DNA from: Acidobacteriota bacterium
GTDB lineage: Bacteria; Acidobacteriota; Blastocatellia; UBA7656
DNA length: 64,000 nt
NCBI GenBank assembly: GCA_016201275.1
Contig: JACQDB010000081.1
Coordinates: 1 to 64,000 of the forward strand
Direction of reading: 5' to 3'
Under the pieces are notes generated by a model. That model was not told where the DNA came from. It saw nothing but the letters and a program-made list of their open reading frames with translations, and made no database searches. Each line of letters begins with the position of its first letter. Position 1 is the first letter of the stretch. Below are positions 49,465 to 63,376 of the stretch, piece by piece. The position numbers were made by a program, and so were the translations under genes.

Positions 49465-50487
49465 TCAGCACACGCGACACAAAGCCGCGCCCCAGGTGAA
49501 GCCCGCACCAAAGGCCAATATCAAAACCCAGGCATCTTCCGTCAAGCGCGCTTCTCGTTGCGCCTGCCACAAAGCCAGAAACGCCGACGCGCTGCTGGTG
49601 TTGCCGTAACGCTCCACATTCATCACCACACGCTCCGGCGCAATCATCAGGCGATGACTCAAAGCGCGCAGCAAATTCGCATTCGCCTGATGCGGAATGA
49701 CCAAGCTGATTTGCGAACGCGACAGGTTATGGCGCGCCAGAATGTCGTTGGCGGCAGCGGTCATTTTTTTCACCGCCTGCAAAATCACGGTGCGCCCGTT
49801 CATCGCGCCGCAATGAAGATTCGCCGCCATCTGTGCGGCGTCAAACCAACGCGCTCCGTTAGCCGTTCCCGGTGCGCGCACGATTAAATCTTCGGCAAAA
49901 CTCCCATCCGTAGCGATCAACACATCTTCGATTTTCAAAGCGCGGTGCTTCCCTTCCCGGCGTGCTGGCAGCACATCGCACAACACCAAAGCGCCCGCGC
50001 CATCGCCAAACAACATACTGATTTCGGCGCTCTGCGGGCTTAACTCCAGCCCTTTCGATTGCGCTTCGGCGGCAAAACAGATTATCGTCTTCGCCGTTTT
50101 CGATTCGATCAAACCGCGCCCGATTTGCAAACTGTAGAGCAGTGTCGCGCACGCCGCTCGCAAATCAAGCGCCGGAATCGCTCGGCATCCTGCGACTTTG
50201 CGTTGCACGAGCGGGGCAATTCCCGGCGTTTGATAATCCGGGGACAGCGTGCCGCCAATCAAATAATCAACTTGCTCCGCGCCAATGCCAGCATCGTGCA
50301 AAGCATCGTTCACGGCTTGCGCGGCAAGGTCAGAGGTGGCTTGATTCGCGTCAACCCAACGGCGTTCGCGTATGCCGCAATTGGCCACTATCCAATCAGG
50401 CGCAACGCCAAGTTTTGCGGCAAGCTCTGCATTAGTGATGACGCGCTCTGGCAAAGCCGCGCCGCTGCCGATGATGTAGCAACTCAT
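49465..50487 (-). CDS. 3-ketoacyl-ACP synthase III (FabH-like)
   Basis: This 340-aa condensing enzyme has the full KAS III triad: Cys113 in LDLRAACATLLYSLQ, His266 in VIPHQANANLLRAL and Asn296 in ERYGNTSSAS. FabH enzymes join an acyl-CoA with malonyl-ACP. I prefer the second ATG (MSCYIIGSG) with GGAG six bases upstream. The gene lies in line with an ACP, an MBOAT and two SGNH proteins, separated from the ACP gene by three stacked repeats, so a dedicated role in making the acyl group for that system is possible. It could instead be an ordinary fatty-acid starter enzyme or a specialised-metabolite KAS. Confidence 0.9.
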   Translation of the reverse strand: MSCYIIGSGAALPERVITNAELAAKLGVAPDWIVANCGIRERRWVDANQATSDLAAQAVNDALHDAGIGAEQVDYLIGGTLSPDYQTPGIAPLVQRKVAGCRAIPALDLRAACATLLYSLQIGRGLIESKTAKTIICFAAEAQSKGLELSPQSAEISMLFGDGAGALVLCDVLPARREGKHRALKIEDVLIATDGSFAEDLIVRAPGTANGARWFDAAQMAANLHCGAMNGRTVILQAVKKMTAAANDILARHNLSRSQISLVIPHQANANLLRALSHRLMIAPERVVMNVERYGNTSSASAFLALWQAQREARLTEDAWVLILAFGAGFTWGAALCRVC

Positions 50488-50511
50488 TAACATCTCCTGA
50501 TTTCGTCGTAG

Positions 50512-50689
50512 CGCCTTCAGGCTAATGGCATGAAGTTAAGCGGCATAGATGTAGCGCAGGCGGTCTAGCCTGTGGTGGACTTGGTGGCAGAAGCGCGCGA
50601 AATCCAAGTCTTAGCTTGCCGCTGTCAGCCGCAGACTAGACTGTCTGCGGTACCGTTTTTCTTAACTTCATGCCATTAGCCTGAAGGCG
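50512..50689. repeat. R5 element with perfect 29-bp inverted ends
   Basis: The left arm (50512-50540, beginning CGCCTTCAGGCTAATGGC) and the right arm (50661-50689) are perfectly complementary over 29 bp. The interior contains two smaller stems: GGCGGTCTAGCCTG and CCGCAGACTAGACTGTCTGCGG. It is inserted between the KAS III start and the ACP end. Confidence 0.85.
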
Positions 50690-50704
50690 GAAGCATCTTT
50701 AGTT

Positions 50705-50817
50705 GTAACTAGAGCGTGTCGCAAAATTCCAGCAACCGCCCATATGTTGTAGATAGTCAAGCCATCGCACACAATATCTAGACAGGAAATCCATTTCTGC
50801 ACCACGCTCTACCTACC
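50705..50817. repeat. R1 element, copy D
   Basis: The ends GTAACTAGAGCGTGTCGCA and TGCACCACGCTCTACCTACC are imperfect inverted repeats. The interior is nearly identical to copies B and C (CCAGCAACCGCCCATATGTTGT...CACAATATCTAG). It lies between R5 and R2. Confidence 0.88.
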
Positions 50818-50844
50818 TGGCCTCTTGGTGAGCGCTGAACGCTG

Positions 50845-51045
50845 TGCGGCGGTGCCGCTTTGAGGTGCGGAAAGGCTGCGCCTTGCCGTAAGCTATGCTT
50901 CCCATTCTCGCGGCTGCGCCGCCTGTGGGCTTCTGCCGCCAAGTTTTTCTGAGGCACCGCCTCCGGTGCGGCAGAGCCGCGAAAAAGTAGCGCCAGCCGA
51001 GCGGAGAGTCACAGACTCTCCGCACCTCAAAGCGGCACCGCCGCA
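50845..51045. repeat. R2 element, copy 1 (perfect 26-bp inverted ends)
   Basis: TGCGGCGGTGCCGC...TTTGAGGTGCGG (50845-50870) and its exact complement (51020-51045) bound a region with inner stems such as CTCGCGGCTGCGCCGCC, GCCTCCGGTGCGGC and GAGAGTCACAGACTCTC. The second copy at 62845-63045 has the same spacing. Flanks continue to 51064 with AGCACTGGCTGGGTAGTTA. Frames on the minus strand here give Arg-rich artefacts. Confidence 0.88.
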
Positions 51046-51113
51046 AGCACTGGCTGGGTAGTTACCTTGAGTTTGGAAATTTCGCTTGAAGTCGCGACCA
51101 CAAAACATCAAGT

Positions 51114-51359
51114 TCATTTCACGGCTTGCGCTCTGGCGATGAGCGCTTCGACTTTGGCAAGGGTATCAAAATTTTCCGGGCGTAACTCTCTGTCCTCCAC
51201 CTTGATGCCGCATTCATTTTCGATGAGCGTGACAAAATCAAGCAGTGAAAACGAATCCAGCAAGCCCGATAGAAAAAGCGACGCCTCGCGCTCCGGCATT
51301 TTCGTATGCGCTTGCTGCGCCGCCTGCTGCAAATACGTGGTGATGGTTTCCGGTAACAT
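51114..51359 (-). CDS. Acyl carrier protein, DltC-like
   Basis: This 81-aa protein has the carrier-protein fold, with the phosphopantetheine attachment at Ser36 in SGLLDSFSLLDF, then ENECGIKVEDRELRPENFDTLAKVEALI. The GLLDS context and the C-terminal helix look more like DltC or specialised ACPs than the housekeeping AcpP (GADSLDTVE). AGGAGGATGAATTA precedes the ATG. It lies 33 bp after the hypothetical secreted protein gene and downstream of the SGNH/MBOAT genes. I infer that it presents an activated acyl group to the MBOAT protein. Confidence 0.88.
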   Translation of the reverse strand: MLPETITTYLQQAAQQAHTKMPEREASLFLSGLLDSFSLLDFVTLIENECGIKVEDRELRPENFDTLAKVEALIARAQAVK

Positions 51360-51392
51360 TAATTCATCCTCCTATTTTTCCAACGGCAAAGG

Positions 51393-51968
51393 TCATTGAT
51401 TCAAATCACACAAGGGGTGAATAGTGCCAAACCATTTCGGTTCGTTGTGTTGATAAGCACTGATTACATAGCCGCGTGTACAGGGCTGATATTTCCCCCT
51501 GCGAAAACAGAATGTGACCAACATACAATCGGAAGCGTTTTGATGGCTGCACGTTGAAATTGCAGGCCACCTCCCAATGGAAAGCTGGCGTGGAAAAATC
51601 CATTCGCCATTGATGATTCCCAACAGACGCACAGGCCGCCCAGCAAAAACTCCCCAATCACAATTCCCTGTGGCTGAACATTGCAGTGGCACAAAATATT
51701 CTGGGATTGAATCCTTATTCAAATCGTAGGCGAACGCGATATTGCCCCATTTGATGCCCCATCTTTCCGAATGCTGGAAGATTCGGGCTACTTTTCGATT
51801 CAACTTTGCTTTTCCAAAGGCGATCTGGTTTGCACACTCAAAATCTATTCTCGCGATAACTTTTGTCCGCGCATCTTTGGGAAGCCAGCGCCTCGCTTTT
51901 GCTTTTGCCCCGCAGTGGCTAACCAGGCAACACCAAATTGCGAGGATGATAAATGCTCGTTTCATCAC
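51393..51968 (-). CDS. Secreted hypothetical protein
   Basis: This 191-aa protein has a short signal peptide (about 1-21, IILAIWCCLVSHCGA) and several Cys pairs. A segment AYDLNKDSIPEYFVPLQCSATGNCDWGVF looks like an integrin/FG-GAP-type calcium loop followed by a strand. I do not recognise the family. It lies between the first SGNH gene (15 bp) and the ACP gene (33 bp), so it is very likely part of that operon. Base composition is somewhat more AT-rich than its neighbours. Confidence 0.65.
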   Translation of the reverse strand: MMKRAFIILAIWCCLVSHCGAKAKARRWLPKDARTKVIARIDFECANQIAFGKAKLNRKVARIFQHSERWGIKWGNIAFAYDLNKDSIPEYFVPLQCSATGNCDWGVFAGRPVRLLGIINGEWIFPRQLSIGRWPAISTCSHQNASDCMLVTFCFRRGKYQPCTRGYVISAYQHNEPKWFGTIHPLCDLNQ

Positions 51969-51983
51969 TTCAATATCTCGTTA

Positions 51984-53411
51984 TCATTTGCTCGACTGAG
52001 CAACGGATTGCATTTGACTTTTGTACCCTTCATACGCCTTCATCATCGCGTCGTAGATGAGGGTGCCGACGATCTCTGCGCCTGGTGCGGTCGGGTGGGT
52101 GTAATCGCCGCCCATCAAACGCGGACGGGCGTCGAACCATTTAGCAACCGTGCCTTCGCCGCCCATCGCCGTGAAGGTGTCAAAGAAAGCGCACTGCAAT
52201 TCAACCGCCAGTTTTCGTTGATACGCCACTAACTTTTTAATCATCGGGCGCGTGACGATTTGTCCGCCAGCGCCGCGCCTCCCTCTGTCCATAGGCGCAA
52301 TCAACATGATGGACGCCTCCGGCAAAGCTTGACGTATGCGGCGCACCGCTTCACGGGTGTCGCGTTCGTATTGACTCATGTTCAAACTCTCGAACTGACT
52401 TTCGTTCGCGCCGTAACCGATGATGACCAAATCCGGTTGACGATGGCGCAGTTGCTCTTGCCAGTGCGCTTCGTCCAAGTAATTTGCCAGCAAGCCAATG
52501 AACGCACCGTTCACGCCTAATGAATCGTAAGCGACACCTACCGCTTGATTTTCCAACACCACGCCAAACATACGCACTTCACCGTTGCCAACCGTTCGTA
52601 TGGTCAAGGTGCGCGCCATCGGCTGAACCGCCACACGATAGAAAGCCGATTTTATTTCCTCGTCCGCAGTAGCAACACGCATCTGTTTTGCGCCGTCAAT
52701 CTCTACCTCAAAGTCGCCGCCGCGTGGTTGCGCCAGGTAATAAATATCGAAAGCAGTAACCATATGTTGTAGTTCACCTTCTGCCAACACACTAAATGTT
52801 GCGGTAGCGTTTGCCGCGCTCGTCGTAAAGCTTGCGCCGCCCAAACCAAAACGATGGTCGCCGCGAGAGATAAACATCGGTTCGCTATCCCATTCGCGGC
52901 TCGCGGCTGTCGCTACGCCGTGATGTTCGTACCAGCCCCAAGGCTTCGCTGCTAACACAAAGCCGTGACCGGCATCGCCGAAACGCTGTTGCAATTTTCT
53001 TCTGATGGTCGAGGTGATGCCGTCGTTGGTGATGGGCGAATCGCCGTAATGACAGATGCGCGTTGGTGCACCGGCGCTTTCGGTTTTGGCGAGCGCCGCA
53101 AAAAAATGATTCAAGGCTTTACCGCCAGGGTCTTCGATTTCTCCGGGCTGCACGACAGAGGAATTAGCCGGGTTTTCATTAGGGTTTTCGCCGTCTTCGC
53201 CGGTTTCCTGATTTGCCTTTGGTGATGCGCCAAACGGGAGCGCGGGCCACAGGCGAAAGCGCCGCAACCCCGGCAAGGCATACGGCAAGGCGACCAGCAA
53301 AACAAAACTGAGCAGCGTTTGCGAAGTCTTGTTGAAAACGACACGCGAGGTTTTCTGTTGGCGCGTGAGCCTTTGAATTTTCTGCCCTGAGCCGATCATT
53401 CTTGTAGTCAT
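51984..53411 (-). CDS. SGNH/GDSL hydrolase-family protein 1 of the acyltransfer cluster
   Basis: This 475-aa protein has a membrane anchor (about 31-48), a Pro/Asn-rich linker and a periplasmic SGNH domain: block I HYGDSPI (Ser125), a jelly-roll-like insert (about 190-300), block III-like IIGYGANESQ, and block V GGDYTHPT with the catalytic Asp-His. Its layout matches the second SGNH protein in the cluster (shared RQRI-EDP-G, RFGD-G-GFVLA-KPW and YGDS segments), so the two are paralogues. Like AlgJ/AlgX or DltD, it may move acyl groups from the MBOAT protein to a surface polymer. The MBOAT gene lies 6 bp upstream. Confidence 0.88.
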   Translation of the reverse strand: MTTRMIGSGQKIQRLTRQQKTSRVVFNKTSQTLLSFVLLVALPYALPGLRRFRLWPALPFGASPKANQETGEDGENPNENPANSSVVQPGEIEDPGGKALNHFFAALAKTESAGAPTRICHYGDSPITNDGITSTIRRKLQQRFGDAGHGFVLAAKPWGWYEHHGVATAASREWDSEPMFISRGDHRFGLGGASFTTSAANATATFSVLAEGELQHMVTAFDIYYLAQPRGGDFEVEIDGAKQMRVATADEEIKSAFYRVAVQPMARTLTIRTVGNGEVRMFGVVLENQAVGVAYDSLGVNGAFIGLLANYLDEAHWQEQLRHRQPDLVIIGYGANESQFESLNMSQYERDTREAVRRIRQALPEASIMLIAPMDRGRRGAGGQIVTRPMIKKLVAYQRKLAVELQCAFFDTFTAMGGEGTVAKWFDARPRLMGGDYTHPTAPGAEIVGTLIYDAMMKAYEGYKSQMQSVAQSSK

Positions 53412-53417
53412 ATTTTC

Positions 53418-54845
53418 CTAGAACCTCGTATAGACAAATGGCACCACATCGGTGCTGGCCACCAGATAAAGTCCGTTGGCCAACGCAAAGAGCAGCGCTG
53501 CCTGCGCCAGCGCCGGTAATCGTATGAAGCCGTTTCGCAAGGTCTCCATCGCTCGGTCGGGCATCGCGTGCGCGAGTAATCCGAGCGCGATCAACAGCGC
53601 TACAGGCAACCCCAAGTTGGCGGTGTCAGTAGTGAAAGTGGCGAGTTGATGAAGCACGGCGAAAGCTTGCGCGAAGCTTTCAGCGCGAAAAAACATCCAC
53701 GCCAGACCGACGAAATGAAAGGTTATGAAGACGCCAAGCGCACGGCTCCAGACGGCATCTCGCGTCGCCAGGCCGAAGCGTTTTCGCAAAGCAGCAAGCC
53801 AACGCACACCAACCAACCCCGCGCCGTGCAAAGCTCCCCAGGCAACAAAATTCCCGCTCGCGCCGTGCCACAGACCGCCGATCAACATCGTCACCACAAG
53901 GCCGCCATACAACCTCGCAGAATTTTTTGAACGCCGCCCCGCAAGGCTGAAGAACACATAATCGCGCAGCCAAGTCGAGAGCGATATGTGCCAGCGTCGC
54001 CAGAATTCCGGCAAGTCTTTCGCCAGATATGGCGCATTGAAATTTTGCGGCAAACGCAAACCCAACAACAGCGCAGAGCCTATGGCAATGTCGCTGTAGC
54101 CGGAAAAGTCCGTATAGATTTGCAGCGCGTAGCCGTAAATCGCCGCCAGATTTTCAAGCGCCGAAAACCGTTCGGGAAAATCGAACACGCGGTCAACAAA
54201 GTTCGCGCCCAGATAATCGGCGATGGCGATCTTCTTAATCAAACCGAGAGCGATTAAAAACAACGCCTCGCTGCCCATCGTCGCGTCAAAATTCAAACGA
54301 CCGCGCAATTGCGGCAGCAGTTGGCGGACGCGCAAAATCGGTCCGGCCAACAGGGTCGGAAAGAAACTGATAAAGGCCAGATATTCGCCATAATTTTCGG
54401 CGGCTTTGACATCGCCGCGATAGACATCCACAACGTAGGCGATGGATTGAAAAACGAAGAATGAAATGCCCAGCGGCGCGAGTAGATGCAGAGGCGACGG
54501 CGCGATGGAAAAACCAAAACCGGACAGGGCGCTTGCGGTTGCTGCGATGAAAAAGTTCGCGTACTTGAAAAAGCTCAACGCGCCGAGGTTTGCGAGCAGC
54601 GACAGCGCCAGCAAAATTTTCCGGCGGCGTGGATTGACGGCTTGCGAAAGCCAACGCGCATTGGTGAAATCAAGCAACGACAGCGCCAGCAATAACCACA
54701 ACCCGCGTCCGCCCGTCAGCGCATAGAAAAACAGATTGGCGGCAAGCAACAAGGCAACGCGCCCTTGCACTTTATGAGCAATCCACCAGTACGCGAAAAA
54801 AATCACGATCAGAAAAATGTAATAGGTTCCGTTGGTGAATAACAT
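53418..54845 (-). CDS. MBOAT-family membrane O-acyltransferase (AlgI/DltB-like)
   Basis: This 475-aa polytopic protein carries an acyl group across the inner membrane for transfer to a polymer. MBOAT marks are plain: FFPTLLAGPILR, ALQIYTDFSGYSDIAIG, LPEFWRRWHISLSTWLRDYVFF (His286) and the catalytic His327 in LIGGLWHGASGNFVAWGALHG. About eleven helices are visible. It is flanked on both sides by SGNH genes (6 bp and 131 bp) and followed by an ACP gene, the set used by DltB-DltC-DltD or AlgI-AlgJ-AlgX systems. Confidence 0.94.
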   Translation of the reverse strand: MLFTNGTYYIFLIVIFFAYWWIAHKVQGRVALLLAANLFFYALTGGRGLWLLLALSLLDFTNARWLSQAVNPRRRKILLALSLLANLGALSFFKYANFFIAATASALSGFGFSIAPSPLHLLAPLGISFFVFQSIAYVVDVYRGDVKAAENYGEYLAFISFFPTLLAGPILRVRQLLPQLRGRLNFDATMGSEALFLIALGLIKKIAIADYLGANFVDRVFDFPERFSALENLAAIYGYALQIYTDFSGYSDIAIGSALLLGLRLPQNFNAPYLAKDLPEFWRRWHISLSTWLRDYVFFSLAGRRSKNSARLYGGLVVTMLIGGLWHGASGNFVAWGALHGAGLVGVRWLAALRKRFGLATRDAVWSRALGVFITFHFVGLAWMFFRAESFAQAFAVLHQLATFTTDTANLGLPVALLIALGLLAHAMPDRAMETLRNGFIRLPALAQAALLFALANGLYLVASTDVVPFVYTRF

Positions 54846-54951
54846 CTATGCGCCTCTACGAATCCTTGGTTAGTACCGCTGAAATATTGAGAGCAAGAAA
54901 AAGAAGTTTAGAGTTTGGCTTTCAGTTGGCCGATTGCGACTGCGAAACCTG

Positions 54952-54982
54952 CCGCCTGAAGGCGGCACGCCAAACCTCATCT
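54952..54982 (-). repeat. Gene-end module with CCGCCTTCAGGCGG hairpin, copy 2
   Basis: Directly at the end of the second SGNH gene, GAGATGAGGTTTGG (whose TGA is the stop codon) is followed by the palindrome CCGCCTTCAGGCGG. This is the same module as at 42110-42145. The last codons (KGKEER) come from the purine-rich start of the module. Confidence 0.6.
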
Positions 54983-56263
54983 CTCCTCTTTACCTTTGGC
55001 CTGCGATTTTTTTTCACGGTGCGGCGTAGCAAGATAGCCGCGCAGCAATTCCGCATACAACAGCTCTGCGACTTTTTGATAACCGCGCCGCGTGAGATGC
55101 ACGCGGTCTGCCTGTGCCAGTGAAAGTTGGTGCCAGCCTTCGATAGCCCCTGCGCCGCCCATCGCTTGAAAGAGATTCCAGAAAGCCGCGCCGGATTTGA
55201 GCGCGGCGGCTCTTTGGGTAGCGACCAGCGCCGACATTCGCGCCAGAGATTGCCAAGTGCCTTGAATGAAAGTGGCGCGATCCGGCGGAGCCATCACCAG
55301 TAGCGCGGCGGCAGGCGCAGCTTGATGCAGGCGATTCAACAGAAGCGAAAATTTTTTGCCGTACTCGTTCAAGTCTAGGTCTGGGTCGCTCACTTCATTC
55401 GAGCCATAAGCGATGACAATTAAATTCGGACTGCGATGTTCGAGATTGCTGGCGAGAATGTGCCAGTCCCAAGCGAGCGGACGATAGAGGCGCGCTCCAT
55501 TAATACCCAACGCATCATAGACCACACCGGCTTGATGATTTTCGATAGCCACACCAAATATCTTCACCGCGCCAGGTTTGACGGTGCGAATTTCCAGCGT
55601 GTGCAAACCCTCGCTTTCGGCTTCGACGGACAAATAAAACGGCGCGAAGGTTTTTGCAGCAAGAGAGATTTGCGGATCAATCGGCTCATCATCCAACCGC
55701 ACATCTATCACCCCGCCGCCCGGTTGCTTCAATAGATAAAGGTCGAAGCGGCTGCCGTTGGCTTGCAAGGTTATCCATTCATCTTTGCCTGCGGTTGTCA
55801 GGCTCACGCCTGCAAGCCCGAATTGCCCGCCTGCTGATTGAGCGGCTTTGCCGAGGCCTTCAACTTTCCAGCCATTGCTTTGGCGGCTTCGCAGATTGCC
55901 GCGCCGATACCACGCCCAAGGTTTTCCCGCCAACACAAAGCCGATTCCGCCATCGCCGAAACGCTGTTGCAATTGGTTCCGCAACTGCCCCGTCAACAAG
56001 TCGGCGGCGACGTGCGAATCGCCATAATGAAGGACGCGAACCCTCGCCAAGCCGGCGTCCGCCTTGCGTAGCGCTGCATAAAAATTGAGCATCGCGCCGT
56101 CCGGGTCTTCGATACGCTGCCGCGTAGTGGTGACGCAGGTAGGTAGTTTTTCTACAGCGAAAACTCCCAAGTTCAGTGCGCCTGAAACCGTCAGCGCCAA
56201 CCCCACAGCGGTCAGGATTTTGCGACGCGATGCTTTCTGGATGGCTGCGACCGTTTTGCTCAT
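54977..56263 (-). CDS. SGNH/GDSL hydrolase-family protein 2 of the acyltransfer cluster
   Basis: This 428-aa protein has an N-terminal anchor (about 14-36) and a periplasmic SGNH domain with HYGDSHV (Ser83), VIAYGSNEVSDP and a C-terminal DRVHLT that supplies Asp and His. It is a paralogue of the protein at 51984 (about the same order of segments throughout). The conventional GDSH block, compared with GDSP in the first copy, suggests the two may differ in activity. The start is uncertain: I use the ATG giving MSKTVAAI; others lie 6 and 18 codons upstream without good ribosome sites. It is the first gene of the cluster. Confidence 0.87.
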   Translation of the reverse strand: MSKTVAAIQKASRRKILTAVGLALTVSGALNLGVFAVEKLPTCVTTTRQRIEDPDGAMLNFYAALRKADAGLARVRVLHYGDSHVAADLLTGQLRNQLQQRFGDGGIGFVLAGKPWAWYRRGNLRSRQSNGWKVEGLGKAAQSAGGQFGLAGVSLTTAGKDEWITLQANGSRFDLYLLKQPGGGVIDVRLDDEPIDPQISLAAKTFAPFYLSVEAESEGLHTLEIRTVKPGAVKIFGVAIENHQAGVVYDALGINGARLYRPLAWDWHILASNLEHRSPNLIVIAYGSNEVSDPDLDLNEYGKKFSLLLNRLHQAAPAAALLVMAPPDRATFIQGTWQSLARMSALVATQRAAALKSGAAFWNLFQAMGGAGAIEGWHQLSLAQADRVHLTRRGYQKVAELLYAELLRGYLATPHREKKSQAKGKEER

Positions 56264-56525
56264 CGGCGCAATTATCGGCATCGCAGAGGGAAACCATAAC
56301 GAGACCCTCAACAGCAAGCTGGCGGGAAGACCGCGCTATGAGATTGTGGCTCGCGCTAATTGTCAGCCTGTGGCTATCCACAGAAAACAACCTGAAATAT
56401 CCGGTTCGCATCCGAAGCAGGTCGGTTTCAAAATAGTGGCGCAAGTGACTGGCAAGGCTGAACTGTGGTTTGCCACATTGCTTATTGCCCCGCGACACGA
56501 TACAAATCATTCAGTTTGCATTGCA
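56264..56525. promoter_or_regulatory. Divergent promoter region
   Basis: The 262 bp between the first gene of the acyltransfer cluster (minus) and the response-regulator gene (plus) must hold both promoters. I see no clear operator palindrome. Confidence 0.4.
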
Positions 56526-57302
56526 ATGGATTCGAGTAAGCCTATGGCCATATTAATCGCCGAAGACAATGTAGCGCAGCGGCGTTACCTGCGCGAAATT
56601 CTGGAGCGCGAATTCGCTTCGCATATGCCGATACTGGAAGCCGGTGATGGCGAAGCGACCGTGGCGCTGGCGCTCGCCCACAAGCCGTCGCTGTGCGTCA
56701 TGGATATTCAAATGCCCAAACTTTCCGGCGTCAAAGCGGCACGAGCCATCTGGCGCAATCTGCCATCGGCGCGCATCATTTTCTGGACCCAGTTTCCTCA
56801 CGAAATTTATATCAACGAGATTCGTAAGATTCTGAAAACTATCAAGCCGACTCCGGCCTATGGCTTCATAGACAAGAACAATCCCGAAACTCGCTTTCTG
56901 CGTTTTGTCGCCGCCGTGTTGGAAGACGGCGCGGATATGATTGATCCGGCTTTCAAAGATTCTTTCAAGCGTCCGCTGTTGACCGAGTTTGAAGCGGAGG
57001 CGTTGTATTATTTGGCGCTGGGTTTATCGAATTGGGCTATCGCTCGCAAATGCAGTTTGAGTTTGCGCGGCGTCGAAAGCCGGTTGGCGACCTTGTACGA
57101 AAAACTTTTCATCTCGTCGCCGGTTGGCACGGTCAACGAAACCTACGACAAGCTGGCTTATAATGTGCGAACCCGCGCCTTCTTTGAAGCTTTGCGTCGC
57201 GGCTTGATTAACAACGACGAATTGGAAAAAGCGGCGAGCGATTTAGAAGGTTGGATAGACCGCGACCGCCGCCGCTTTATTGAAAAGCCAAAAGAATTAT
57301 GA
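56526..57302 (+). CDS. NarL/FixJ-like response regulator
   Basis: This 258-aa protein has a receiver domain (LIAEDNVAQRRYLREIL; phospho-acceptor Asp in LCVMDIQMPKLSG) and a C-terminal LuxR-type helix-turn-helix (LTEFEAEALYYLALGLSNWAIARKCSLSLRGVESRLATLYEKL). The DNA-binding part is longer than usual, with a basic tail. Either the ATG here or one six codons on (MAILIAEDN) may be the start; neither has a strong ribosome site. It overlaps the next gene by four bases and precedes a histidine kinase, so the three form a signalling operon. Confidence 0.88.
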   Translation: MDSSKPMAILIAEDNVAQRRYLREILEREFASHMPILEAGDGEATVALALAHKPSLCVMDIQMPKLSGVKAARAIWRNLPSARIIFWTQFPHEIYINEIRKILKTIKPTPAYGFIDKNNPETRFLRFVAAVLEDGADMIDPAFKDSFKRPLLTEFEAEALYYLALGLSNWAIARKCSLSLRGVESRLATLYEKLFISSPVGTVNETYDKLAYNVRTRAFFEALRRGLINNDELEKAASDLEGWIDRDRRRFIEKPKEL

Positions 57303-57607: not shown

Positions 57608-60600
57608 TTGAGGTCAATATACACAGCCCTATACGCAGGAGCTTTGGCTGCCGTCCTCCTACTCTTTTTGCTGTGGCCAATTCCTGTAGCGCTTTCTTCA
57701 TCCGCACAACCCGATAACGACGCGGCGTCGGCGTCGCCCAACCTGCATCAATGGGGCGCGGTGACGCTCTTTCACGGGTTGCCTTCCAATCACGTTCGCG
57801 CCATCGCGCAGGACACGGACGGCACGCTGTGGTTTGGCACCGATAGCGGTTTGACTCGCTACGATGGTCGCCGCATCGAAAAAATCGCCATCGAAGAACT
57901 GGCCGCCACCCGCATCAACGCGCTCAAAATGGACCGTCACAACACCCTGTGGATTGCCACCGACAACGGCGCGTTTCAATTCTCTCATCAACAATTCAAA
58001 CTGCTTCACGAAACCCTCGGCAAAGCCATTACCGCTATCGCTATTGATGCTCAAAACCGCATCGCTATGGTCAGCGAACCGGGCATCATTTTTATTTGCA
58101 CAGCGGCAAACGATTCCTCCCTGCAAGTGAAAACTCTGACGCCTGCCGACTACGCGCTCTTGAACCTTGACGCCAACAATCGCCCGCTGCCGTTGACCAG
58201 CGTCGCCTGGGCGGGCGATGCCCTCATCGTCGGTTCGCATGGGCGCGGTTTGTTGAAGGTGGAAAATTCTGAAGTCAATGAAATCAACAGCACCCCCAGA
58301 GCTTTTTTCATCGAAGCGATTACCACAGACGTTGATGCGCGGTTGTGGTTTGGCGCGCAGTTGAAAGCCAATGATGGCGGCCTCTATCAAAGCGTGGATG
58401 CGAATCACCCAATAAAATCGGGCGAAAAAACCGGCACGGTCAGCGTCTTGAGTTGCGCCGCGCAGAGTTTGCTGTGGGCAGGCACGCAAGGGCAAGGCGT
58501 GTTCGTCTTCAAAGACGGCAACCTCGCAGAGCATTTCACCTTTGAAAATACCGCCGGAGGCTTGCGCTCGAATAATCTCTTCGCCATCTTCATAGACCGC
58601 GAAGGCGTTGTGTGGTTCGGCACAGATCGCGGCGTTTGCCGTTACGACCCGCAGAGCGTGCGCGTCGAAACCATCGCCGCCAATCCCGAAAGCAATTTCG
58701 CCCGCGTGTTGGCGCAAACCTCGGATGGCTTGATTTGGTGCGGCTCAAATCGCGGCCTGTTCGTGCGTTCGGCGTCCGGCAAATTCTGGAGCGAAGTCGA
58801 AGAGTTCAAGGGCAAAACTATTTACGCCCTGAGCGAAGACGCGCATCAACGCCTGCTCATCGGAACCGCCGCCGGACTCTTTGCCGGTGAGCAAGCGGCA
58901 GGCGTCAATTCGGCTGATTACTTCGCCGGACGCATACGCTTCACGCGCCTCGAAAGCGAAGCGCAGAAAGACGGCGCAGGCGACAGCATACGCTCGATCT
59001 GCGAATTTCAGGGAGCCGTTTATCTGGCGGTCTTCGGGCGCGGCATCGAACGACTGGACGGTACCAAACGCACGCCGGTCTTTCCTTCGGACAATGACGA
59101 CAACAAAAAATCACAGGTTCTCAGTGTGGCGGCCAAGGGCAACGAAGCGCTTTGGTTCGGCACCGCCAGAGCCGGGGTTTTTTTATTCGATGGCAGACAA
59201 GTCAACACCGACGCTCAACTCGCGCCGCTCAACAGCAAAACAATTTGGTCAATCGCGGTCTCCAAAGCCGGCGCGATCTGGTTGGCTTCCGATGCCGGTT
59301 TGTTTGTTTACGCCAATCGCCGTTTGCTCCACGTCCTCAAAGATGTGGATGCGCGACAGGTCATCGCTTTACCCAAGCCGGAGAATGCCGTGTGGTGCGC
59401 GACGGCGGACAACGGCTTGTATAAAGTTCTGCTCAACGAAAACCTTGAACCAATTTTGACGCGCTTCGATACCGAGCAAGGACTGCCTTCGCAAAAAATC
59501 TTTGCCGTGTTGACAGCGCAAAGTGAAGCGCGCCGCGAAGTATTGATCATTGGCACGAACAAAGGCATCGCCAGATTTGCGCCGGGCAATCTCGCGCCCG
59601 CGCTCAAAGCGGCGCGTGTCATCGGCAATCGCCTGTTTCAAACGCCGGAGATTCAAGCCGGGCTGGCGCTCGAATATCCGCAGAACAGCTTGCTGGTAGA
59701 GGTGACGGCGATCAGCAGTCGCACCTTTCCCGAACAGTTTCAATATCGCTTTGTGGTGCAGAACGAAGCGGGGAAAATCGTCGCGCAAAAACTCTCGCGC
59801 GATTCGCAGATGTTGATGGAAGGGTTACAGACCGGCGGCTATACCTTGACGGCGCAAGCCTTCACCAACGAATTGATTGCCTCCGACCCTTTGACCATAC
59901 GCTTCACGGTGAAGCGCGCACCGTTTCCGTTGGCTTCGACCGCGCTGGCGATTTTGCTGGCCTTCGCATTGTTAGCGATGTGGTGGGGCTATCGCCAGAA
60001 TCGCATGATTGCGCGCAGCAATGCGGCGCTGGCTTCGACCAATCAACAACTGGCCGAGACTCGTATGCAATTGGCCAATGAAACCGAGACCGAACGCCGC
60101 CGCATCGCTCGCGATCTGCACGATCAAACGCTGGCCGATTTGCGCCGCCTGATGATGCTGTCGGACGAACTGGCGACCAATGATGCAGCACCCCATAAAA
60201 CCGTACTGGAAGCGAAAGTTTTTCGCAGTGAAATCGAATCGGTGTCGGCAGAGATTCGCCGCATCTGCGAAGACCTCAGCCCTTCGGTGTTGGAAAACGT
60301 AGGCTTTGCGGCAGCGCTCGAATATGCGTTGACCGATGCCGTCGCGCACCTGCCCGCCGCAAACAAATTCGAGTACGAGTTTGTTTGCGAAGAAGGCATA
60401 GAAGACCGCTTGCAGTTATCGCCGGTGATGCAGATTCACCTCTACCGCATCGCCCAGGAAGTCATCAATAATATTTCGCGCCATTCGGCTGCGACGCGGG
60501 TGCGACTGACAGCGCGCATTGCCAACGGCGGGGCTTTGGTGTTGGAGATTGAAGACAACGGCAGAGGCTTTCAATTAGCGACAGCCGAAAAACGCGGACG

Positions 60601-60724
60601 CGGCCTGGCCAACATACGCTCCCGCGCCAGCCTGATTGAAGCCGAAGTTAATTGGAGCCAGCGACCAGAGGGCGGCACGCTCTTCACCTTGCAAAAAGCA
60701 GCAAAGACAGGCAATGAACTCTGA
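57608..60724 (+). CDS. Propeller-sensor histidine kinase (Reg_prop/Y_Y_Y, HisKA_3)
   Basis: This 1038-aa inner-membrane kinase has an N-terminal anchor and a large periplasmic sensor (about 45-690) made of repeated blades of the form IAQDTDGTLWFGTDSGLTRYDG, FIDREGVVWFGTDRGVCRYD and ISVSKAGAIWLASDAGLFVY. A Y_Y_Y-like domain follows (about 700-770), then a helix near 775-795. The kinase part has the HisKA_3 box TERRRIARDLHDQTLADLRRL (His838) and an ATPase domain with EDNGRGF and GRGLANIRSRA. It starts with TTG behind AGGAAAGAAATC. It should phosphorylate the response regulator two genes upstream. Such sensors often detect carbohydrates, but the ligand is unknown. Confidence 0.93.
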   Translation: MRSIYTALYAGALAAVLLLFLLWPIPVALSSSAQPDNDAASASPNLHQWGAVTLFHGLPSNHVRAIAQDTDGTLWFGTDSGLTRYDGRRIEKIAIEELAATRINALKMDRHNTLWIATDNGAFQFSHQQFKLLHETLGKAITAIAIDAQNRIAMVSEPGIIFICTAANDSSLQVKTLTPADYALLNLDANNRPLPLTSVAWAGDALIVGSHGRGLLKVENSEVNEINSTPRAFFIEAITTDVDARLWFGAQLKANDGGLYQSVDANHPIKSGEKTGTVSVLSCAAQSLLWAGTQGQGVFVFKDGNLAEHFTFENTAGGLRSNNLFAIFIDREGVVWFGTDRGVCRYDPQSVRVETIAANPESNFARVLAQTSDGLIWCGSNRGLFVRSASGKFWSEVEEFKGKTIYALSEDAHQRLLIGTAAGLFAGEQAAGVNSADYFAGRIRFTRLESEAQKDGAGDSIRSICEFQGAVYLAVFGRGIERLDGTKRTPVFPSDNDDNKKSQVLSVAAKGNEALWFGTARAGVFLFDGRQVNTDAQLAPLNSKTIWSIAVSKAGAIWLASDAGLFVYANRRLLHVLKDVDARQVIALPKPENAVWCATADNGLYKVLLNENLEPILTRFDTEQGLPSQKIFAVLTAQSEARREVLIIGTNKGIARFAPGNLAPALKAARVIGNRLFQTPEIQAGLALEYPQNSLLVEVTAISSRTFPEQFQYRFVVQNEAGKIVAQKLSRDSQMLMEGLQTGGYTLTAQAFTNELIASDPLTIRFTVKRAPFPLASTALAILLAFALLAMWWGYRQNRMIARSNAALASTNQQLAETRMQLANETETERRRIARDLHDQTLADLRRLMMLSDELATNDAAPHKTVLEAKVFRSEIESVSAEIRRICEDLSPSVLENVGFAAALEYALTDAVAHLPAANKFEYEFVCEEGIEDRLQLSPVMQIHLYRIAQEVINNISRHSAATRVRLTARIANGGALVLEIEDNGRGFQLATAEKRGRGLANIRSRASLIEAEVNWSQRPEGGTLFTLQKAAKTGNEL

Positions 60725-62798: not shown

Positions 62799-62844
62799 AG
62801 GCAAAAGTAAAATGTAAAAAGTAAGCAACTACTCAGCCAGTGCT

Positions 62845-63045
62845 TGCGGCGGTGCTGCTTTGAGGTGCGGACAGACTGCGCCTTTCCGTAAGCGGCGCTC
62901 CCAACTCTCGCGGCTACGCCGCCCTTGGGCTTCTGCCTACAAGCTTTTCTGAGGCGCAGCCTCCGGTGCGGCAGAGCCGCGAAAACGCAGAGCCAACCTA
63001 CCGGAGAGTCTGTGACTCTCCGCACCTCAAAGCGGCACCGCCGCA
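62845..63045. repeat. R2 element, copy 2
   Basis: The 26-bp ends (62845-62870 and 63020-63045) match with one mismatch; the interior repeats the CTCGCGGCTACGCCGCC and GCCTCCGGTGCGGC stems of copy 1. Its orientation relative to copy 1 is reversed: here R1 lies on the right, joined by AGGCTGGGTAG. The apparent minus-strand frame from 63055 to 62402 is an artefact reading through this repeat and the back of purE. Confidence 0.88.
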
Positions 63046-63072
63046 CAGCATTCAACTCTCACAATCAGGCTG

Positions 63073-63180
63073 GGTAGGTAGAGCGTGCTGCATAAACGGA
63101 TGTTCTGTCCAGATATTGTAGGTGATGACTTAACCATCCACAACATATGGGCGGTTGCTGGAATGCTGCGACACGCTCTA
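63073..63180. repeat. R1 element, copy E (reverse orientation)
   Basis: The left end GGTAGGTAGAGCGTGCTGCA and the right end TGCTGCGACACGCTCTA are imperfect inverted repeats. The interior is the reverse complement of the other copies (CAGATATTGTAGG...CACAACATATGGGCGGTTGCTGG). Confidence 0.87.
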
Positions 63181-63376
63181 GAGCGATTTTGGTTTGAGGT
63201 TACTGAAATATCAAACCCGTTGAGCGGCGGTCTCTGACCGGCGCTAGAGCGATTTTGGTTTGAGATTACTGAAATATCAAAGCCGTTGAGCGGCGGTCTC
63301 TGACCGGCGCGCGGTCGAAGACCGCTGCTCCACGATAGGGGGTTCCGTACACACAGATGAAAACCGCTCTAGTTAC
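63179..63376. repeat. 66-bp direct duplication inside a TAGAGCG-ended element (R6)
   Basis: Two 66-bp units (63179-63244 and 63245-63310) begin TAGAGCGATTTTGGTTTGAG, end GACCGGCGC and differ at two positions. They are followed by GCGGTCGAAGACCGC and the end AAAACCGCTCTAGTTA, which is an inverted match to the unit start CTAGAGCGATTTT. R6 overlaps the end of R1 copy E. The GCGGTCTCTGACCG stem is related to one inside R3 (near 511). Confidence 0.75.

Follow-up and report, generated by a model that had tools for sequence, protein, structure and literature searches.

A cassette of genes on the minus strand of an acidobacterial contig probably encodes a peptidoglycan O-acylation system of the OAP (Pat-Ape) type, in which a dedicated acyl carrier protein (ACP), loaded by a KAS III-like enzyme, would replace acetyl-CoA as the acyl donor. 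The cassette lies in a 64,000-nucleotide stretch of DNA (hereafter the window; G000:C144) from a host genome of 6.84 Mb in 162 contigs, and comprises the following features.

54977–56263, minus strand: SGNHa, a secreted SGNH protein assigned to the Ape1 family (ATG start; Pfam Lipase_GDSL_2), with an intact triad (GDS ... DRVH)
53418–54845, minus strand: MBOAT O-acyltransferase of PatA/AlgI type (Pfam MBOAT), with His286/His327 and a C-terminal F470-V-Y472-T-R-F475
51984–53411, minus strand: SGNHb, an exported or membrane-anchored protein (Pfam Lipase_GDSL_2) with a predicted Ape1 fold and conserved Ser125, Asn336, Asp436 and His439
51393–51968, minus strand: small secreted protein, no family match
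51114–51359, minus strand: ACP (Pfam PP-binding), with the phosphopantetheine Ser36 in an LDSF motif
50845–51045, between ACP and KAS III: palindromic repetitive element 2, with 44-bp inverted ends (86%)
50512–50689, between ACP and KAS III: palindromic repetitive element 1, with 29-bp perfect inverted ends
49465–50493, minus strand: KAS III-like enzyme (Pfam ACP_syn_III/_C) of a cassette-specific clade, with Cys115-His268-Asn298

Read 5′ to 3′ along the minus strand, the order is SGNHa, MBOAT, SGNHb, small secreted protein, ACP and KAS III, followed by a glycerol-3-phosphate dehydrogenase gene; an alternative TTG start for SGNHa lies at 56317. All six open reading frames of the minus-strand run described in an earlier note on this DNA are present, and Pfam and NCBIfam back the gene names, with Pfam supplying the domains, for all but the small secreted protein, which matched neither collection. 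The 6–33 bp given there for the spacing of the middle genes were measured as 6, 15 and 33 bp, within a series of gaps from SGNHa to KAS III of 131, 6, 15, 33 and 620 bp, the last of which separates ACP from KAS III. The small secreted protein had been listed among the genes of the run; it was seen only in the window and in one relative (L026) and does not belong to the conserved core. In most relatives the ACP and KAS III genes abut or overlap by 4 bp, and since the 4-bp overlap is seen in L030, L031 and L032, repeats seem to have broken up the junction in the window. Each palindromic element belongs to an interspersed repeat family that occurs many times across the genome, its best copies being more than 90% identical. 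ORF-like stretches within the gap (50813–51117) were considered as a lost gene and rejected, as they fall mostly inside the repeat elements. Relatives of the second palindromic repeat recur at window positions 62827–63181. Divergent from SGNHa are genes for a LuxR-type response regulator (56085–57302, plus strand) and a Reg_prop histidine kinase (57608–60724, plus strand). This pair may control the cassette, as a similar regulator is found upstream of the cassette in L027.

The cassette is a conserved system and not a chance neighbourhood. The MBOAT was searched for in 147 genomes of the class and the ACP, in reverse, in 162, and a survey covered 396 genomes of the phylum; the relatives' ORFs were called by a simple script and many assemblies are drafts or metagenome-derived, so that single absences at contig ends weigh little. 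Ten MBOAT relatives (L026–L035; 48–64% identity) adjoin SGNH genes, and the ACP accompanies all ten; counting the window, every one of the 11 orthologous MBOAT loci sampled from the class carries it, in L033 split over two frames. The KAS III gene adjoins in 10 of these 11 loci (nine of the ten relatives), truncated at a contig end in L027 and in L029; the eleventh genome (G016) has it on a different contig, with 65% identity. The reverse search returned 13 strong ACP matches, 12 of them beside an MBOAT. The thirteenth (G020; L049, 3335–5527) is a decayed cassette: it lacks the MBOAT, SGNHa and the first part of SGNHb, while the 3′ part of SGNHb remains together with ACP and KAS III genes that are still open. 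The order MBOAT-SGNH-SGNH-ACP-KAS III was found in six genomes of a family in another class (f16); in three further families (f11, f29 and f39) the ACP-KAS III pair lies beside SGNH/MBOAT genes on the opposite strand, and in two genomes of family f70 the pair stands alone, with a cassette-type MBOAT and an SGNH gene elsewhere in the genome. The earlier note had proposed looking for such linkage in related genomes and had named its absence as grounds for refutation; this search found the linkage across the phylum, so that its reading withstood the check.

Outside the phylum (Bacteroidota, Ignavibacteriota and others), no cassette-type ACP lay beside the MBOATs among the matches listed; there, again among the matches listed, the MBOAT often comes after one or two SGNH genes, and KAS III is represented only by two partial matches at the edge of one locus, about 7.5 kb away. 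These matches may miss close relatives and do not confine the cassette to one phylum. The existence of such SGNH-SGNH-MBOAT runs without the cassette ACP, together with the repeat-split ACP-KAS III junction of the window, could be taken to mean that the ACP and KAS III work in lipid or secondary metabolism and stand next to an ordinary OAP cluster by accident. Such a coincidence is highly improbable in view of linkage that spans the phylum in several gene orders, co-occurrence of the genes where they are unlinked, and KAS IIIs that form a single clade. Chance linkage was rejected on the outcome of the ACP-based reverse search and of the phylum-wide survey.

The ACP had been described as a DltC-like carrier. 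It is indeed a conserved, small PP-binding carrier: the serine of its DSF motif is invariant in 12 aligned sequences and present in further cassettes, with phenylalanine directly after it in all examined. The positions one and four residues after this serine are mostly hydrophobic and that five residues after it is acidic, a pattern resembling Met36, Val39 and Glu40 of DltC, which contact DltB (PMC11035591). The likeness to DltC is otherwise weak, however, with scores of 24 and 17 bits against the two DltC models, far below their cut-offs of 68 and 52.

In its predicted anatomy the MBOAT is PatA-like and not DltB-like, as it ends in a PatA-type FxYxxF, the acyl-shuttle motif whose tyrosine is acetylated in PatA (PMC12148441). 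This C-terminal motif occurs in all cassette MBOATs; both histidines are invariant and FWRRWH is present. The MBOATs of the core cassettes and the two from f70 form one clade (97/94), whose sister is a Polyangium MBOAT without an ACP. When 21 cassette-type MBOATs were compared with 41 others, the cassette clade proved to have lost a cytoplasmic loop that carrier-less MBOATs conserve, LGG[NS]R[KG]G; at column 164 the cassette type has T, V or S, as against mostly Q or H in the others and T in DltB. The loop aligns with the DltB segment containing Met302, Val305, Ile306 and Met309, residues that bind DltC (PMC11035591). These differences mark the clade as a whole, may go back to a single event, and are no proof that a carrier docks there. 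The residue after the shuttle tyrosine was considered as a mark of acyl size and dropped, as acetyl-using PatA proteins (FIYANF, FIYSSF) have the same small residue as the cassettes.

Other MBOATs were seen in different surroundings. The second MBOAT of the host genome (L036; G000:C76:76000-95500) has a CoA-type LGGNR loop and lies in a glycan gene run, and the cassette ACP and KAS III are absent beside it. At two loci (L040, 6977–10654; L042, 8709–11737) the ACP-KAS III pair accompanies divergent MBOATs that fall outside the core clade and lie among glycan genes, which suggests that ACP and KAS III can move together as a donor module.

The joint presence of a carrier, an MBOAT and an SGNH protein, and the weak match of the ACP to the DltC models, could also speak for a Dlt system proper, carrying out D-alanylation with DltA supplied in trans. 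This reading is very hard to sustain, and membership in Dlt was ruled out on four features. As had been noted earlier for the run itself, DltA is missing, with none above cut-off in the host genome; the MBOAT scores 196 bits against the DltB model TIGR04091, whose cut-off is 375; the ACP falls far short of the DltC models; and the shuttle tyrosine is carried in an FxYxxF fused to the MBOAT, not on a separate DltX microprotein. The SGNH proteins, moreover, are Ape1-like.

Both SGNH proteins are placed by profile with the peptidoglycan O-acetylesterase Ape1, SGNHb also by its predicted fold. The best solved match of the SGNH profile is Ape1 of N. meningitidis (E 4e-46), followed by that of C. 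jejuni. The structure predicted for SGNHb (mean pLDDT 86) agrees with both Ape1 structures at TM 0.81–0.89 by target length, the next protein being far behind. In PatB the glycine of block II is replaced by Ser or Asn, the canonical Gly being kept in esterases (PMC12148441); SGNHa and SGNHb both retain this glycine, in G(V/I)NGA, and a PatB identity is thus unsupported for either. A gene for a DPBB protein (RlpA-type lytic transglycosylase) lies beside the MBOAT in all six f16 cassettes, and an SLT transglycosylase gene is found near two cassettes of family f3. O-acetylation is described as controlling lytic transglycosylases (PMC6627197, PMC1199599).

It is likely that the modified polymer is peptidoglycan and that the OAP cluster is the nearest known relative of the cassette, given Ape1-family SGNHs and a PatA/AlgI-type MBOAT with a fused FxYxxF; the Ape1 fold and the transglycosylase neighbours point to this polymer and do not prove it. 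The cell-surface polymer of the earlier note is accordingly narrowed to peptidoglycan on the strength of these SGNH and MBOAT types. An unlikely but still appreciable alternative is that the same carrier-dependent machine modifies an exopolysaccharide or another surface glycan. Alginate and cellulose are further polymers on which MBOAT/SGNH pairs act (PMC12148441), and the divergent MBOATs of L040 and L042 stand with ACP and KAS III among glycan and methyltransferase genes. Against this, the SGNHs of the core cassettes are specifically Ape1-like, lytic transglycosylase neighbours occur in two lineages, and no core cassette lay inside a glycan cluster among the loci examined.

The KAS III-like enzyme of the cassette resembles the FabH/PqsD type in family and likely fold: the KAS III family domains are present, NF006829 is matched over its cut-off, and the best PDB profile match is PqsD (3h76). 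It differs in belonging to a separate clade, in which 24 cassette KAS IIIs group together (100/98) against 17 other KAS IIIs, these including the same genomes' other FabH-like enzymes and E. coli FabH. Identity with a housekeeping FabH was ruled out by this separate clade and by another KAS III, on contig C73 of the host genome (35% identity). Three residues of E. coli FabH that we take to contact CoA and AcpP (R36, K214 and R249) are exchanged in every one of the 24 cassette enzymes, R249 always for Asn. From these replacements we infer that the cassette KAS III has a changed carrier partner.

The full Cys-His-Asn triad reported earlier stands for the window and 12 relatives but not for the clade, since alignment with E. 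coli FabH shows Ser in place of Cys in 11 of the 24 members, with His and Asn in all. The split tracks the two main branches, with Cys-His-Asn in 13/13 members from the class of the window and Ser in 11/11 members of the other branch. The triad consequently does not hold as evidence for condensation across the family. Within the branch of the window the triad is intact, and the position of FabH F87 is occupied by T, V or I in the same 13 enzymes, which suggests that their pocket differs from the one in E. coli FabH (if the role that we assume for F87 is correct). Both features are compatible with a true condensing enzyme that would build a β-ketoacyl chain (acetoacetyl, for example) on the carrier, so that the wall bears an unusual acyl ester. 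We regard this as rather unlikely, given the Ser-for-Cys replacement in 11 of 24 clade members and the outcome of a search of the cassette for a dedicated reductase or dehydratase gene, which found none; for the window's own Cys-type enzyme, classical condensation would be possible. The invariant His and Asn, together with that same replacement, favour malonyl-ACP decarboxylation or acyl transfer as the probable activity of the clade over classical condensation. In KAS III enzymes His and Asn take part in malonyl-ACP decarboxylation (PMC4807248). In one f16 genome, a fusion of AMP-binding, PP-binding and acyltransferase domains follows the KAS III gene (L173, 9499–12084).

In the mechanism that we propose, a phosphopantetheinyl transferase would arm Ser36 of the ACP. 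The KAS III-like enzyme, with the cassette ACP and not AcpP as its partner, would then load the carrier with a short acyl group. It could do so by decarboxylation, turning malonyl-ACP into acetyl-ACP, or by transferring the group from an acyl-CoA, with classical condensation possible in the clade of the window; linkage, clade structure and residue patterns suggest this loading step. On the cytoplasmic side of the membrane the carrier would hand its acyl group to the MBOAT, which with His327 would pass it to Tyr472 of the FxYxxF, a shuttle proposed by analogy with PatA around a motif that is itself observed. One of the Ape1-like SGNH proteins would finally accept the acyl group on its Ser and deliver it to peptidoglycan, and the other may remove the acyl group or do the same.

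The earlier note read the run as an acylation system of MBOAT and SGNH proteins that depends on a carrier and has a KAS III in the place of DltA. That reading is retained, apart from the kinship with Dlt, as the OAP cluster is nearer; the substitution of a KAS III for DltA is strengthened by phylum-wide linkage and by trees in which KAS IIIs and core MBOATs each form a single clade. More tentatively, and at somewhat less than even likelihood, the cassette may represent a phylum-wide form of carrier-dependent peptidoglycan acylation, in which a KAS III-like malonyl decarboxylase/acyltransferase feeds a PatA-type MBOAT through an ACP, possibly with an acyl group other than acetyl. If true, the cassette would be a PatA-type shuttle with a carrier, bridging the Dlt and acyl-CoA MBOAT/SGNH schemes; the donor side of PatA-type MBOATs would be exchangeable, and KAS III would gain a role in wall modification. 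The cassette also provides a testable prediction of wall chemistry for a little-studied group of bacteria. Literature searches that covered few subscription journals found no description of a combination of MBOAT, ACP and KAS III for wall acylation.

Among known systems, Dlt (DltA-DltX-DltB-DltC-DltD) resembles the cassette in joining an MBOAT to a small phosphopantetheine carrier and an SGNH partner. The cassette differs in having neither DltA nor DltX, in an MBOAT and an ACP that fail the DltB and DltC models, and in its Ape1-type SGNHs. The OAP system PatA-PatB-Ape1 (PMC1199599, PMC12148441) shares with it an AlgI-type MBOAT with a catalytic His and a C-terminal FxYxxF, and the pairing of this MBOAT with two SGNH genes of the Ape1 family, with lytic transglycosylase genes near the cassettes of two lineages; the OAP clusters described in 2005 contained a pat gene and one or two ape genes (PMC1199599). 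The cassette departs from OAP in its dedicated ACP and KAS III, in the loss of the CoA-type cytoplasmic loop, and in that neither SGNH has the PatB oxyanion marker, which has been described for some OAP clusters but not for every one. A 2025 account assigns a carrier protein to Dlt and none to the other MBOAT/SGNH pathways (PMC12148441), since these evidently draw on acyl-CoA. The cassette looks OAP-like on its membrane and periplasmic side and Dlt-like on its donor side, fitting the full definition of neither.
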